DNA of 51,132 nt, taken from the IMG/VR virus record IMGVR_UViG_3300047548_000794, positions 1-51,132 of that record, one strand, 5' to 3'. Numbering within the stretch: the first letter of the stretch is position 1; every line of letters starts with the position of its first letter. The notes under the pieces are model-generated. The model ran no database searches. It was not told the DNA's origin and saw only the letters and a list, made by a program, of their open reading frames with translations. The translations under genes were made by a program, and so were the position numbers. Shown here piece by piece: positions 29,163 to 35,208 of the stretch. The DNA is from a virus.

Positions 29163-29345
29163 AGGTTGAGCATCATTTTTTGAAGTTTTTTTATGAATTA
29201 CTTGCCATTTTCTTCTGTTTCTGTAAACACCTGAAAGTGGGTAAGAAATTAGGCTTTTCCAACTTATAATGCCGAACCTCGCTAGAGTATCTAGGAAGTC
29301 CGACCTTACATATATCATTTCCATTCTGTCTTCGTATTGTTCCAT
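29157..29345 (-). CDS. 62-residue RFG-motif protein
   Basis: The core DFLDTLARFGIISWKSLISY carries T-L-x-R-F-G-I. The C-terminal half is basic (YRNRRKWQVIHKKTSKND). It follows the exonuclease gene and ends in the 29133-29162 dyad. One of the clearest family members outside the 35-36 kb cluster. Function unknown. Confidence 0.6.
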   Translation of the reverse strand: MEQYEDRMEMIYVRSDFLDTLARFGIISWKSLISYPLSGVYRNRRKWQVIHKKTSKNDAQPV

Positions 29346-30229
29346 TATTCCGCTTTAGAAGGAGTAGAGTTACCTCTTAAAGAAGCTTTCTTTTCCTTAG
29401 ATAAAAGATTTGTACGATCTCTAGATTCACTTCCACAAGATTTACACTTGTATTTTTGGAATTTACTAGTGTTGGTATATGCGAAACCATTTTTAGAGAA
29501 ATCTTTACTTCCACACTTACAAACATTTACAAGACCATCATGATAAACATTAAAGTTAATACGATTGTTATCCCAAACGATAAGTTTATGATATAACTCT
29601 TCTAAAGATAGAACGTCATACTTATTGTAGTGTTCCATTTCTTTCCATGCCTCTAGATTGTCTTTTAAACACTCTGTCCAAAGTTCATGTCCTTGGAACT
29701 TACCATGGTTAATTTGTTTTTTATATGTCACACAAAGTTTATCTGTCATGTATGCAAGTTTATTACTAGTAAAAGCGAAATGTCTCTTTGCAATTTCTTG
29801 TGTATCAATATGTCTGTAACTTGATGGAGGTGGAAAACCACTAAGGATAAATCGTGCATTTAATTTCTTCTGATCAAAACGTTTTCCGTTCTGTGTGATA
29901 ACAACATCTGCCTCATCTAGAAGATCCCAGATGCCTTTAAGAGTCTTAGAATCATCTGCGATATTCTTCACACCACGTTGATCCATATACATAACTTTAT
30001 CTGGTCCATCATCAAGCCATTTTGCACTCCAGCTTAAGATATGCCAATCTGCTTGAATCTGATTAAGACCCACATTGTTTTCCCATAATCCCCATACGTG
30101 AGCGATAATAGGAGCAGTTTCAATGTCGAACACTAACACTTTCGGCGAAGCTTTAGGTGCAGCAACTGCAATTTTTGCTTTCGCTTTTACTGCCTTTTTA
30201 GCAGTTTTCTTAGTTTTCTTAGTAGCCAT
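29345..30229 (-). CDS. DEDD-family 3'-5' exonuclease with zinc ribbon
   Basis: 294 residues from ATG 30229, which overlaps the previous stop as TAATG; GGAGAC lies upstream. A basic Lys/Ala-rich N-terminal extension (about 30 residues) precedes an RNase H-like fold: VFDIETAPI (Asp, Glu), NGKRFDQKKL (Asp) and YNKYDVLSLEEL (Asp with Tyr three residues before). A C-terminal zinc ribbon (CKCGSKDF then CKSCGSES) follows. This is a DnaQ-like, DEDDy-type exonuclease fused to a zinc ribbon, sitting among virion genes. Confidence 0.85.
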   Translation of the reverse strand: MATKKTKKTAKKAVKAKAKIAVAAPKASPKVLVFDIETAPIIAHVWGLWENNVGLNQIQADWHILSWSAKWLDDGPDKVMYMDQRGVKNIADDSKTLKGIWDLLDEADVVITQNGKRFDQKKLNARFILSGFPPPSSYRHIDTQEIAKRHFAFTSNKLAYMTDKLCVTYKKQINHGKFQGHELWTECLKDNLEAWKEMEHYNKYDVLSLEELYHKLIVWDNNRINFNVYHDGLVNVCKCGSKDFSKNGFAYTNTSKFQKYKCKSCGSESRDRTNLLSKEKKASLRGNSTPSKAE

Positions 30230-30552
30230 TATTTTGTCTCCAGTTTTTCTATCTTTCTGTCTAGATACCACCTAGCTTTTTTAAGATCTTCAAGTTCTTT
30301 ACTTGGATCTTTCTTACCTGCTCTAGCGATATATTTAACAACGTTTCCTAAATGGAAACCAAGATTCCATGCTTCAATTGCATCGATTGGCTGAATAGAT
30401 GTAGCGTTGTAATGCTTTGGCCAATTGATAATATCATTTGTTTTCTTAGCTAAACAGATGTTACAGGGACATGATTCATTGTGTTCAGATGACAATTCCA
30501 CCTTAACCAAATTTGCAACAGCATCTGCAACTTCTTTATTATTCAAACCCAT
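30229..30552 (-). CDS. DUF3310 protein
   Basis: A 107-residue protein. The motif WPKHYNATSIQPIDAIEAWN, then FHLGNVVKYIARAGKKD and ELEDLKKARWYLDRKIE, is that of DUF3310, a widespread phage family sometimes annotated as nucleotide kinase without proof. An N-terminal CPCNIC segment may bind metal. Overlaps its neighbours on both sides. Function not established. Confidence 0.85.
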   Translation of the reverse strand: MGLNNKEVADAVANLVKVELSSEHNESCPCNICLAKKTNDIINWPKHYNATSIQPIDAIEAWNLGFHLGNVVKYIARAGKKDPSKELEDLKKARWYLDRKIEKLETK

Positions 30553-31115: not shown

Positions 31116-32579
31116 TTACTTACCCATGTTCTTGAAAACACAGTTAAATCTTGGAGCGTACACGAATAAAGCACCATACAATACGATCGCGAACTCAAGT
31201 GCAGTTGTAACGATAGCAAAGTTGATTTTGCTCAATGGAGCAAGTTGCTTAAATCTCATACATTCAGAAGACATATCTAGTAAGAAAGCTTCTCCCAATC
31301 CCGGTTCTTTAGCACCAGAGTCAACGATAGTTGCATTTGGCTTATAGTTACCGATGAAAGATTCTGTACCAACAGCTCCACCAGCTTGTGAGCGGTAAAC
31401 TTTGATATGCTTAGTAGTAGCAGGGATGTTAGAAAGAGTAAGAGTTACAGCTTGTCCAGCAGTTACACCAGTTACACCACCAGCTTCTTGGATTGCTCCA
31501 GATTCACCGAAATCGTTAACGAAAGTAACTTTGTACTGGTAATCACCAGCGCCAAGACCTTTTGTCCCAGCTGGAGCAGCACCAGCAGCACCAACAACAG
31601 CAGCAGCACCAAGTACTGGAGCGTTTACGATACCAACTGATCTAGTTCTTCCACGTGGACGTAAGAAAAGGTTTGGTTTGAAATCTACTGTACCAGCAGA
31701 AGTAACCATCTTGTTTACATCGTAACCAACAGTTTGTCCAGAAAGACCAGGAGCCGATCTGAATTGTGGATAGAATTGCTTAATGAAACTAGAAAGAGCA
31801 AGAGGCTCAATGTGTAGTTCAGAAGGAGCACCGAAGTTTTCTAGAGCAATAACTGCTAGATCTTCTAGATCGTCCTGAGTAAGAACTGCACCGTCCAAAT
31901 CTTTAACGATTGAACGAACTTCTCCGTATCCTTCGAAGTCTTTTGATTTTTGTTGAGCATCATCGTCACCTTTTACTAATTGTTGTAAAAGACCGTTCAT
32001 AGCGATTGAGTTAGCAGGAAGATCTGAAAGAGCTCCGTTTTGTAACCCAGTAGCTGCGTTAGCGAAGTGAGAGTGACCCCAATACATTTCGCGTTCAACG
32101 TTCTTAAGAAGATCCATAGTTCCTTCTTTAGCTTGTTGAGCAACGATATCACCAACAGTAGTGCGAACTAATGTCATTTGGTGAGATACTTTTCTACGAG
32201 TACCAAAGAATACAATTCTTTGTCCATCGCGGATGTATGTTGAATCAGATTCTTGTGGTGCTCCACCTTCTCCGATATATGGAGAAGCATCTGATCCGTA
32301 ACCGATTAAGCGGTTATATTGTTCGAAAAGGTTGTATGCCTTGTCTACCGAAATAGCAGGCCACATTTTCAAGTTCTTCATATCAAAAGTAACAGACTTT
32401 AAAGTCGATTCTAATGATTCAGCTTGAAGGACACCACCGTAAGTAAGGTCCGTAGGTTTACCAGCTCCACCGTAACCGGCAGTGATGGCTTTGTTTAGTG
32501 CTTCGACTTCCTCAGGAGAAACAATCCCCTGCTCTAGTCCCGAAACGATTTGATTTACAGCATCTTGATTGATTTGCAT
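31116..32579 (-). CDS. major capsid protein with Ig-like insertion
   Basis: 487 residues. After an N-terminal helical segment (about 1-30) comes KAITAGYGGAGKPTDLTYGG and VLQAESLEST, a stretch also found in the prohead protease. The HK97-like core has YIGEGGAPQESDSTYIRDGQ, RRKVSHQMTLV and GHSHFANAATGLQNG. Residues about 345-430 form an Ig/Fn3-like insertion (GDYQYKVTFVNDFGESGAIQ, IPATTKHIKVYRSQ). The gene is preceded by a scaffold-like gene and followed by a strong terminator, as expected of a major capsid gene. Confidence 0.85.
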   Translation of the reverse strand: MQINQDAVNQIVSGLEQGIVSPEEVEALNKAITAGYGGAGKPTDLTYGGVLQAESLESTLKSVTFDMKNLKMWPAISVDKAYNLFEQYNRLIGYGSDASPYIGEGGAPQESDSTYIRDGQRIVFFGTRRKVSHQMTLVRTTVGDIVAQQAKEGTMDLLKNVEREMYWGHSHFANAATGLQNGALSDLPANSIAMNGLLQQLVKGDDDAQQKSKDFEGYGEVRSIVKDLDGAVLTQDDLEDLAVIALENFGAPSELHIEPLALSSFIKQFYPQFRSAPGLSGQTVGYDVNKMVTSAGTVDFKPNLFLRPRGRTRSVGIVNAPVLGAAAVVGAAGAAPAGTKGLGAGDYQYKVTFVNDFGESGAIQEAGGVTGVTAGQAVTLTLSNIPATTKHIKVYRSQAGGAVGTESFIGNYKPNATIVDSGAKEPGLGEAFLLDMSSECMRFKQLAPLSKINFAIVTTALEFAIVLYGALFVYAPRFNCVFKNMGK

Positions 32580-32590
32580 ATTAGTTCTCC

Positions 32591-33295
32591 TTATTTAATA
32601 CCGTATTTATGGGCAATTTGTCTTAATTCGTCTGAATCTTTTGTTGTCTCAACTCTGAAAACATCTGATGAATCAACTTTTGTACCAGACTTCTTAAGAT
32701 CGAATAGCTTGTTAGCTACGTCAGTCTTATTAAGTGGTGCATATTCTTCAACAGATTTTTGTAGAGCAGTTACGCCAGCTGGCACACCTTTTCTTGAAAC
32801 TGGGGCATTAGCCATAGCTTCAAAAGCAGCAGCCATCTTAGAAAGTTTTTCTTCAAAAGATGAAAGTTTAGACTCGTAAGACTTAATTAGATCTTCAGTA
32901 GCTGATAAAGATTTTTTCAAATCTTTCATTTCTTCTTTAGATTCTTCTTTTTTGCTTTCTTTGTCTTCGTGTTCTTTGCTTTCTTTATCTTCGTCTTCTT
33001 TCTTCTTCATTTCTTTCTTTTTCTTTTCTTCTTCAGACTCGTCTTCAGATTTCATGTCCTCTTTTTTGTCCATGTCGTCTTTGTCATTGTCATCTTCTTT
33101 CTCATCTTCGTCTTTATCTTCTTTCTTAGCGTGAAGATCACCATTAACTGGTTTACCGTCGATTCCAGAACCTGGACCTTCGATTTTAATCTCACTAGCA
33201 GCGAATTTAGACTTTTTGATCTCTTCAATTTCTTGTAGAGTGTCATCAATTAACGAAGTAAGAGATTTTACTAATTCTTTATTACTTAAATCCAT
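32591..33295 (-). CDS. highly charged scaffold-like protein
   Basis: 234 residues, with a middle region (about 55-130) almost entirely Lys, Glu and Asp (DKDEDEKEDDNDKDDMDKKE) and a helical C-terminal part (LIKSYESKLSSFEEKLSKMA, then DVANKLFDLKKSG). Position between protease and capsid genes, and the charge, fit a scaffolding or internal core protein. Ends DSDELRQIAHKYGIK. No sequence family recognised. Confidence 0.65.
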   Translation of the reverse strand: MDLSNKELVKSLTSLIDDTLQEIEEIKKSKFAASEIKIEGPGSGIDGKPVNGDLHAKKEDKDEDEKEDDNDKDDMDKKEDMKSEDESEEEKKKKEMKKKEDEDKESKEHEDKESKKEESKEEMKDLKKSLSATEDLIKSYESKLSSFEEKLSKMAAAFEAMANAPVSRKGVPAGVTALQKSVEEYAPLNKTDVANKLFDLKKSGTKVDSSDVFRVETTKDSDELRQIAHKYGIK

Positions 33296-33319
33296 AGTAT
33301 TCTCCTTATAACGTTAAAA

Positions 33320-33658
33320 TTAAGCACCCATGTTCAATAGATCAGCAGATCCTTGAAGTTCACCCAATGGAATGATAATGTTGTTAGCGTGTCCACAAGC
33401 TACTTGAAGTACTTGTAAATGAATCAAAGTTGTAGGGTTGATTGAGAAGTTGATTTTCCCAGGATTAGCGATACCAATTCCTAAGAATGGTGATACTTGG
33501 TCAGAAACTCCACCCATTGGGCTTTGAATTGATGCATCAACGTAAGTAATTGTAATTCCACCAGCGACAAGAGTAGCTGCATCAGATCTTGATGTAACAA
33601 TTCCTAATTGCTTGCAATTACGTTCGATTTTGTCTAAAATTTGTACACGGTTTGCCAT
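33320..33658 (-). CDS. small virion-like protein
   Basis: 112 residues with strong hydrophobic and glycine content (PFLGIGIANPGKINFSINPT) and no charge clusters. Start behind AGGAGATAGAC. It lies between protease and scaffold genes, where head decoration or minor capsid proteins often lie. Role inferred from position only. Confidence 0.6.
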   Translation of the reverse strand: MANRVQILDKIERNCKQLGIVTSRSDAATLVAGGITITYVDASIQSPMGGVSDQVSPFLGIGIANPGKINFSINPTTLIHLQVLQVACGHANNIIIPLGELQGSADLLNMGA

Positions 33659-33765
33659 GTCTATCTCCTTATTTGAGTTTATACTCTATTAATAATAAAA
33701 TCAGTACTCATCATATCATAAGTGCTTGGTTAAACACGGGCCAACCATAATCGCTTATGACATCT

Positions 33766-33771
33766 ATTATA
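33766..33771 (-). promoter_or_regulatory. -10 element (GTATAAT) in the 33659-33801 spacer
   Basis: AAGTATAAT on the minus strand, about 108 bases before the ATG at 33658. The spacer of 143 bases also carries a TGGTT...AACCA pairing. It probably starts the capsid transcription unit; no -35 recognised. Confidence 0.45.
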
Positions 33772-33801
33772 CTTATAGTTTTTTGTGTGTTTTTGTGCTA
33801 G

Positions 33802-35208
33802 TTAGATAAGGTTTTTAAGCTTGTCCAATGGAAAGTTTTGATGACATTTGCGACACTTAACTTGATGTTTCATGTAGACTTGTTCATCTCCACAATTATC
33901 GCAGTTAACATATTCTATTCCATCAGATTTCTTACGACCATCTTCTAAAGATTCAGATTGAAGAACTTGGCCACCAGTTGCAGATGTAGGACTTCCTCCG
34001 CCGTAACCAGCAGTCATTGCTTTAAGGAGATTAAGCTTCGCTTTTGAATATTGCTCAGATTTATTTATTTCCATGTGTGATCTTATTTTATCGATTACTT
34101 GTTGTGCCTTTGCAGGATCAACTCCTCTTCCAATTAGATCAGTGTGTACATTTTTAAGATGTCCAATGTCATTCATTGCTTTGTTTGCGTGAATTTGAAA
34201 CATATTTTTTTGCTTAACTTCTTGAGCACTTTTAATAGGTTCAGCTGGAGGAGCTTTTGCAGTAGTTGGCGTTTCGTTTGGTATTTGATTAACTCTTGGA
34301 CCTGAAGTTGCAGCAATCTTTGCTTGACCAATATTTTGTTGATAAGTATCACTTCTTGTAGCTCTAATGTCTTGTTCTTTAGCTTTTACCGCATCTCTAG
34401 TCTGATTGGGTACAGGTTTGATTGCAAGTCCATTTGGACCTATTGCTTTTACTAAGTTATTGATTTTTTTAACATTATCTTCTACTTTTAAAATAGCAGC
34501 TTGTTTCATAATTTGCTCTGGAGATGACTCTGATACATGTATTTCTACACCAATAGTCTTAGCTAATTCCTTGATTTTACTAATATTATCAAAAATAGCA
34601 TTTGCAGAAGCATGACGCTCTATATGTCTAAAAGATGGAATATTAGTCTCAGCTAAGTGCATAACACTCTTAATAAGACGCATGTCTGCTTCCCAATCTA
34701 CACTAGATTTATCTAGATTTAGAGGTTCAACTAGAGTTGCATTATTAGCAGGAGTAAATGTAAGCGCAACAGAATGTATTTTGGTTTGAGCAAGCCTAGA
34801 AGGATCTGAGATTCCTCTGGCCATAACTCCACCTTCAACAGAAGCTTTCATCTTTAAAGGAATATCTTCTCTGTGGACGTTTTTCATGATGGCAGCTGCA
34901 GCACGAGCATTTGGATGATCTTCATCATTATAAAGTTCACCAGCTACGTAGATATAAGGAGCTTTTATCTTCTCCCAGTAGTACTTATGTCTCTCATTAT
35001 CACAATCTTCAGCTTTGAAGATCTTTTTAGCGGATGTAACTCTACCGATAGAGTTAAAGAAGCCTTTTCCATGGTTATCGTTAAGACGACCATTTCCATT
35101 TTGTAAGTCACTAATATCAGCACCTTCTACACTTAAAGTCTCCCCTTGAGTATCTTTAAGCTCTGAACCTGCACACATATCTATAAGTAAGCGCTTATTT
35201 TTAGCCAT
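33802..35208 (-). CDS. prohead protease with C-terminal zinc ribbon
   Basis: 468 residues. The N-terminal protease domain has LNDNHGKGFFNSIGRVTS (candidate His), KMKASVEGGVMARGI (candidate Ser) and KIHSVALTFTPANNAT, the layout of phage head-maturation serine proteases. A long helical middle may act as a scaffold. Near residue 395, KAMTAGYGGGSPTSATGG and QVLQSESLE match a segment of the capsid N-terminus. The last 45 residues form a zinc ribbon (CDNCGDE then CRKCHQNF). The catalytic assignment is by eye. Confidence 0.75.
   Translation of the reverse strand: MAKNKRLLIDMCAGSELKDTQGETLSVEGADISDLQNGNGRLNDNHGKGFFNSIGRVTSAKKIFKAEDCDNERHKYYWEKIKAPYIYVAGELYNDEDHPNARAAAAIMKNVHREDIPLKMKASVEGGVMARGISDPSRLAQTKIHSVALTFTPANNATLVEPLNLDKSSVDWEADMRLIKSVMHLAETNIPSFRHIERHASANAIFDNISKIKELAKTIGVEIHVSESSPEQIMKQAAILKVEDNVKKINNLVKAIGPNGLAIKPVPNQTRDAVKAKEQDIRATRSDTYQQNIGQAKIAATSGPRVNQIPNETPTTAKAPPAEPIKSAQEVKQKNMFQIHANKAMNDIGHLKNVHTDLIGRGVDPAKAQQVIDKIRSHMEINKSEQYSKAKLNLLKAMTAGYGGGSPTSATGGQVLQSESLEDGRKKSDGIEYVNCDNCGDEQVYMKHQVKCRKCHQNFPLDKLKNLI

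Follow-up and report, generated by a model that had tools for sequence, protein, structure and literature searches.

The question raised by this locus is why a prohead protease and its main substrate, the major capsid protein, should carry the same stretch of about 27 residues. The locus (positions 31,116 to 35,208) lies in the window, that is, the whole 51,132-nucleotide stretch of viral DNA analyzed here (IMG/VR record IMGVR_UViG_3300047548_000794). The initial annotation, made from the letters alone, had noticed a segment common to capsid residues ~30-57 and protease residues ~395-422, and had proposed that it is a cleavage site or a targeting signal. We consider it moderately probable that the prohead protease and its main substrate each hold one copy of a cassette for processing and docking, which would serve a cut of the capsid protein, a self-cut of the protease, and mimicry of the N-terminal arm (N-arm) of the capsid protein.

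The common segment was borne out. Capsid residues K30-E57 and protease residues K396-E422 are identical at 21 of 29 aligned positions, with a one-residue gap. The local score of the match was 92, compared with a mean of 38 and a maximum of 73 in 2000 shuffles of the capsid (Gumbel p ~2e-6), and when the window's own record was queried with the protease, the capsid segment was the only second match (E=1.4e-5). A search of relatives for co-occurrence had been suggested from the outset. Related viral contigs were retrieved by using the two window proteins and an alignment of Herelleviridae proteases as queries, annotated regions of SPO1, Mx1, DAC16 and other phages were added, and the pairing was measured in 132 non-redundant genomes holding both genes, the local score being compared with 100 shuffles in each case. 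In 129 of them, spread over eight capsid lineages, the protease-capsid match was above every shuffle, and the co-occurrence was thus confirmed. These genomes include SPO1 and the Staphylococcus, Listeria, Enterococcus and Lactobacillus phages of the Herelleviridae. One genome (L140) was slightly below the shuffle threshold, with the segment visible by eye, and a protease copy was not detected in Bacteroides phage DAC16 and Chryseobacterium phage MA9V-3 (2/132 genomes); a search of the whole DAC16 record returned the capsid only, and no second copy. In MA9V-3 we observed an apparent fusion of protease and scaffold (L100:4195-5793, 532 residues), rich in Lys-Ser (K-S) and without a clear copy of the segment. 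Scans of viral contigs with the capsid alignment and with the Mx1 protease gave zero usable loci.

The copy number was exactly two, capsid and protease, in 17 window-clade records of up to 177 kb as well as in 11 genomes of Herelleviridae, and two such copies were also found in Mx1. Hence, the segment is private to the capsid-protease pair, and a general head-targeting tag carried by many proteins is ruled out. The Mx1 protease open reading frame (ORF; L086:8965-12684) is 1239 residues long, with the segment internal (~240-275) and a long C-terminal part after it.

From sequence comparisons, the K30↓A31 bond of the window capsid is almost certainly cut by the prohead protease. In PDB entries 9row, 9rox and 9roz, the Staphylococcus phage capsid chain has 439 residues and starts SFQTGYG, that is, at residue 25 of a gene product of 463 residues (5lii); the residue just before this start, Lys24, aligns with K30 of the window capsid. 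When a Kayvirus protease was compared with the PDB, its only match was the N-terminus of the Staphylococcus phage capsid. The lysine that opens the segment (P1) did not vary among 68 distinct sites in capsids and 86 in proteases; the pattern used to find the sites itself begins with Lys, so that this invariance is partly built in, and it was also seen in independent alignments. In both copies P1′ is mostly A or S, and P2′ mostly L, I or F. The gp5 capsid protein of HK97 is cut at K103↓S104, and we confirmed these two residues in its sequence. The proposal of a cleavage site is therefore supported by three independent lines, namely the PDB chain start, the HK97 site and the K-S enrichment of the scaffolds described below. 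A mature N-terminus before residue 30, the outcome named in advance as speaking against the proposal, is contradicted for the homologous Staphylococcus phage capsid. The piece upstream of the bond is poorly conserved, with a mean identity of 0.66 compared with 0.92 for the segment. The suggestion that the capsid copy marks the end of a delta-like domain held in that it marks the end of an N-terminal piece predicted to be removed, but this piece is short (mostly 20-41 residues) and not of HK97 size. A Glu-type site as in T4, at the ..ESLE end of the segment, was disfavoured: it is at the Lys end that the mature chain begins, and the scaffolds of the larger lineages are poor in E-S.

The scaffold proteins encoded between the two genes bear the same K-S signature. 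K-S occurred 440 times, compared with 182 expected, in scaffolds of the window's clade (60 relatives; S-K 156), 283 times versus 72 in the SPO1 clade, and 255 times versus 90 in the Kayvirus clade. S-K was near expectation or far less raised than K-S. In long control ORFs the observed and expected K-S counts were 484/488, 169/119 and 80/82, respectively; K-S followed by a hydrophobic residue was likewise enriched in scaffolds and not or only weakly in the controls. These counts come from related sequences, so that z-scores overstate the significance; that the lineages agree carries more weight. The window's own scaffold has 7 K-S sites for 4.6 expected, which is not significant alone. When the long segment was sought in scaffolds, only short K-S sites were seen, and scaffold-versus-capsid scores were low. 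Because these sites lack the long stretch, the latter would not be needed for cutting, provided that the scaffold K-S sites are cut. Three scaffolds (L003, L013 and L014) carry, in their acidic middle part, a tandem repeat of ~21-26 residues (SKGENEKADxDAGKFAQAPTV).

The two copies change together. Eight lineages were defined by the capsid body minus its N-terminus, and each protease copy was scored against the capsid copies. The mean score was 92 with the capsid copy of the same lineage and 47 with those of other lineages (permutation p=3e-5, a calculation that takes as independent a small set of eight lineages of uneven size), and the own-lineage capsid copy ranked first in 6 of the 8. Both proteins read KAxTAGYGGAGxPTxxTGGxVLQxESLE in the window's clade, KSFxTGxGxxPDTQxDAGALRxE in Kayvirus, LEAG..V.P...EGG..FR.ESL in SPO1 and KAMEAGNFNAxPSTL in Mx1.

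In the protease, the segment lies between two domains. H46 and S123, the candidate catalytic residues, were invariant in 46 relatives, and the equivalent His and Ser were invariant in 10 Herelleviridae proteases. Within the segment, K396, A400, G401, P407 and Q417 were invariant in the 46 proteases, while the linker preceding it ranges from nearly none to several hundred residues. In the AlphaFold2 model of the window protease, the C-terminal zinc ribbon had a confidence (pLDDT) of ~87, and residues 402-428 were below 50; in both this model and that of a Kayvirus-type protease, the segment is disordered, and the catalytic and C-terminal domains on either side of it are ordered. The nearest fold to the window model was that of the herpesvirus assemblins, a weak match (best E=3.9e-3); for the compact Kayvirus-type model, assemblins were the best fold match (E=2.6e-4), and T4 gp21 was among the matches. 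In one relative (L012:3772-6741), an insertion of ~550 residues separates the segment from the zinc ribbon; hence, the two are separable modules. In six others (L051, L053, L055, L063, L068 and L080), the protease gene is on the strand opposite the capsid gene, and segment and zinc ribbon are kept. Two of these (L055:4573-5865 and L068:5325-6662) have an extra C-terminal extension past the ribbon (..HHWSWDH..NKKWNH..).

We propose the following sequence of events. The protease would cut the capsid protein after the segment lysine, removing a short propeptide, as shown for the homologue, and the remainder of the capsid segment would become the N-arm of the mature protein. The protease would likewise cut itself at K396↓A397, which would release the catalytic part from a C-terminal tail comprising segment and zinc ribbon; in the Herelleviridae version, the released tail would be the segment and the helical domain. 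This self-cleavage is likely, because the site and the enzyme are the same and C-terminal self-cleavage is known for SPN3US gp245. The ~27 residues after the bond probably mimic the capsid N-arm, so that the protease tail would occupy the place of an N-arm on the procapsid lattice. Docking of the tail would keep the protease on the inner shell until autocleavage releases the catalytic domain. The targeting-signal half of the initial proposal is thus plausible, since the conserved stretch extends ~27 residues beyond the bond, exceeding what a cut site needs. We suggest that the copies evolve jointly because both must fit the same partner in the same phage. Prohead protease has been found in purified virions of fRuSau02 (PMC5618024), CKA15 (PMC12282133) and Bc431v3 (PMC3601020), and a protease is named among the JS1 virion proteins (PMC12977511); its detection in Herelleviridae virions fits retention. 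After the self-cut, the new N-terminus of the tail would resemble that of the mature capsid protein. That the cut-off tail replaces an N-arm in the capsid lattice and is kept in the virion as a minor capsid component is a tentative extension that we rather doubt.

Parts of this proposal could hold without the others. The protease copy might be an uncut targeting tag that mimics the capsid N-arm, its lysine being conserved for binding; the shared stretch does extend well beyond the needs of protease subsites, and the scaffold K-S sites lack it. However, few residues of either copy are as well conserved as P1 Lys and P1′ Ala/Ser, which agree with the scaffold and HK97 sites, and related enzymes such as SPN3US gp245 self-cleave after the catalytic domain (PMC5694885). 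We regard docking alone as unlikely, and cleavage recognition alone as somewhat less likely still. In the latter case the part after the bond would bind an exosite on the catalytic domain, with no role of the tail at the shell; both copies are presumed substrates of one enzyme, and co-change with that enzyme would yield the observed pattern. Yet the long part is missing from the scaffold sites, which this enzyme presumably cuts as well, and the structure models show no docking onto the catalytic domain. Joint change could also be explained by any common partner in the same genome, for example scaffold or portal, if the segment bound it in both proteins. This is improbable: the segment begins exactly at the mature capsid N-terminus and remains in the finished shell, and no third protein was singled out.

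Descent or DNA exchange might also account for the likeness. The capsid and protease genes are neighbours in most genomes, as would suit a protease copy that has no function today and is left over from an ancestral duplication or fusion of the two; but the segment has invariant residues beside a linker of freely varying length, it is kept where the protease gene is inverted, and such a relic would not follow the capsid copy from one lineage to the next. Nor would joint change arise if the products of one old duplication had diverged independently, and we consider a relic very improbable. The patches of DNA identity pointed out in the initial annotation are present, although a few bases from where they had been placed, and are what gene conversion or chance similarity might leave; they carry no extra signal. 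At identical residues the same codon was used in 1046 of 2514 cases in the 129 genomes, compared with 1083 expected from codon usage, and in the window alone in 13 of 22 cases (10.9 expected). Recombination at the DNA level would give joint change, but is ruled out by codon agreement at expectation, and chance by shuffles that never reach the score; together they retain almost no probability. Since codon agreement is no higher than codon usage predicts, the likeness is kept by selection at the protein level.

Several points weigh against the processing and docking cassette that we favour. The AlphaFold2 models of the window and Kayvirus-type proteases dock the segment nowhere, the active site included. 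The PDB start at S25 is that of the chain as chosen by the depositors, and the cut of the protease at its own copy is inferred for all these proteases. Some of the authors who found protease in virions ascribe it to residual or undissociated enzyme. The two Bacteroidota-phage genomes lack a detectable protease copy, yet their capsids retain the K↓A site. Finally, the capsid copy is near-constant inside the window's clade, and co-variation is visible between lineages only.

The features of the locus are listed in the table below. The window belongs to one of the SPO1-like phages. Its capsid protein is homologous over its full length to SPO1-type major capsid proteins (PHROG 752 and SPO1 tblastn), with 32% identity to SPO1 gp6.1 over 95% of the query (tblastn, E=4e-51) and a phmmer match to PDB 9vel (SPO1 Gp6.1; E=6e-64). 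It is ~33% identical to Herelleviridae capsids, and the window is not classified as a member of that family. The protease matched head maturation proteases by sequence (PHROG 1028), including the putative prohead protease of Myxococcus phage Mx1 (tblastn, 37%, E=5e-27), and its invariant His and Ser are candidates for the catalytic pair of such an enzyme; no match was found in any Herelleviridae record by tblastn, nor any family in a Pfam search. The gene order protease, scaffold, capsid is that of SPO1, with one extra ORF of 112 residues (33320-33658, minus strand) between protease and scaffold, which had no Pfam or PHROG match. An ORF at 29345-30271 (minus strand) encodes an RNase_H_2-type exonuclease domain (Pfam PF13482, E=1.4e-11), with a possible CpXC-like zinc motif after it that scored below the cut-off.

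Table. Features of the capsid-protease locus, in window coordinates
Feature	Position	Strand	Evidence or remark
Major capsid protein, SPO1 type, 487 aa, Fn3/Ig-like insertion	31116..32579	-	PHROG 752 major head protein, E=6.5e-60
Shared segment, capsid copy K30-E57, KAITAGYGGAGKPTDLTYGGVLQAESLE	32409..32492	-	Predicted cut K30↓A31
Capsid N-terminal propeptide, residues 1-30, removal predicted	32490..32579	-	Poor conservation; homologous residues absent from PDB 9row/9rox/9roz
Head scaffold protein, 234 aa, acidic, several K-S sites	32591..33295	-	Sits between protease and capsid, as in SPO1
Prohead (head maturation) protease, 468 aa	33802..35208	-	PHROG 1028 head maturation protease, E=7.4e-10
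C-terminal zinc ribbon of protease, residues 430-468 (C436, C439, C452, C455)	33805..33921	-	Four Cys invariant, 46 sequences
Shared segment, protease copy K396-E422, KAMTAGYGGGSPTSATGGQVLQSESLE	33943..34023	-	Predicted self-cleavage K396↓A397; disordered in model
Catalytic domain of protease, residues 1 to ~165; candidate catalytic pair H46/S123	34714..35208	-	46-sequence alignment, AlphaFold2 model

N-terminal capsid processing and protease self-cleavage are already known, and it is the proposed shared cutting and docking cassette that seems undescribed. A literature search found no description of the shared segment, which is weak evidence of absence, most subscription papers being outside its scope. 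SPO1 and the relatives of phage K and A511 are model and therapeutic phages, and a substrate segment borne by the enzyme and kept in step with the capsid offers a testable answer to how the protease finds the shell and is switched off. A cleavage specificity, L-x-K↓[SA]-hydrophobic, and a mature capsid N-terminus can be predicted for hundreds of genomes. Cleavages after Lys can go unnoticed, trypsin having the same cut point, and for this reason the protease cut would be invisible in ordinary tryptic proteomics.

Among known systems, HK97 resembles the window in that the capsid is cut at K↓S, the protease gene lies upstream of the capsid gene, and K↓S sites are found in the delta domain and just after the gp4 catalytic domain. 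Removal of an N-terminal extension at such a site is predicted here at K30↓A31, and is seen for the homologue by its PDB chain start. Unlike the window pair, gp4 and the gp5 N-terminus share no segment (score 47, shuffle maximum 58), and the delta domain has 103 residues and HK97 no separate scaffold protein; here the extension is of ~30 residues and a scaffold gene is present, so that it is not a long domain replacing the scaffold. The C-terminus of SPN3US gp245 is self-cleaved at the same short motif as its substrates (PMC5694885, PMC10052503). However, SPN3US gp245, phiKZ gp175 and T4 gp21 cut after Glu (A-X-E in SPN3US) and what they share with their substrates is a motif of three residues rather than a long stretch; T4 gp21, tested much like the window pair, gave no match to the N-terminus of gp23.

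The herpesvirus assemblin (pUL26 type) is the best fold match of the compact protease. The herpesvirus protease carries a C-terminal tail that its main substrate, the scaffold, has too; this tail binds to the capsid protein and is removed by cleavage. There the tail arises from nested genes and matches the scaffold, whereas the tail here is a distinct copy whose match is the capsid protein. SPO1 and the Herelleviridae (gp3.2, gp3.3 and gp6.1) differ from the window in a compact protease of 250-280 residues, in which a helical C-terminal domain takes the place of the long linker and zinc ribbon, and in a segment that is spelled differently; the order of protease, scaffold and capsid genes is the same, and so is the kind of shared segment, with a score of 111 compared with a shuffle maximum of 44.

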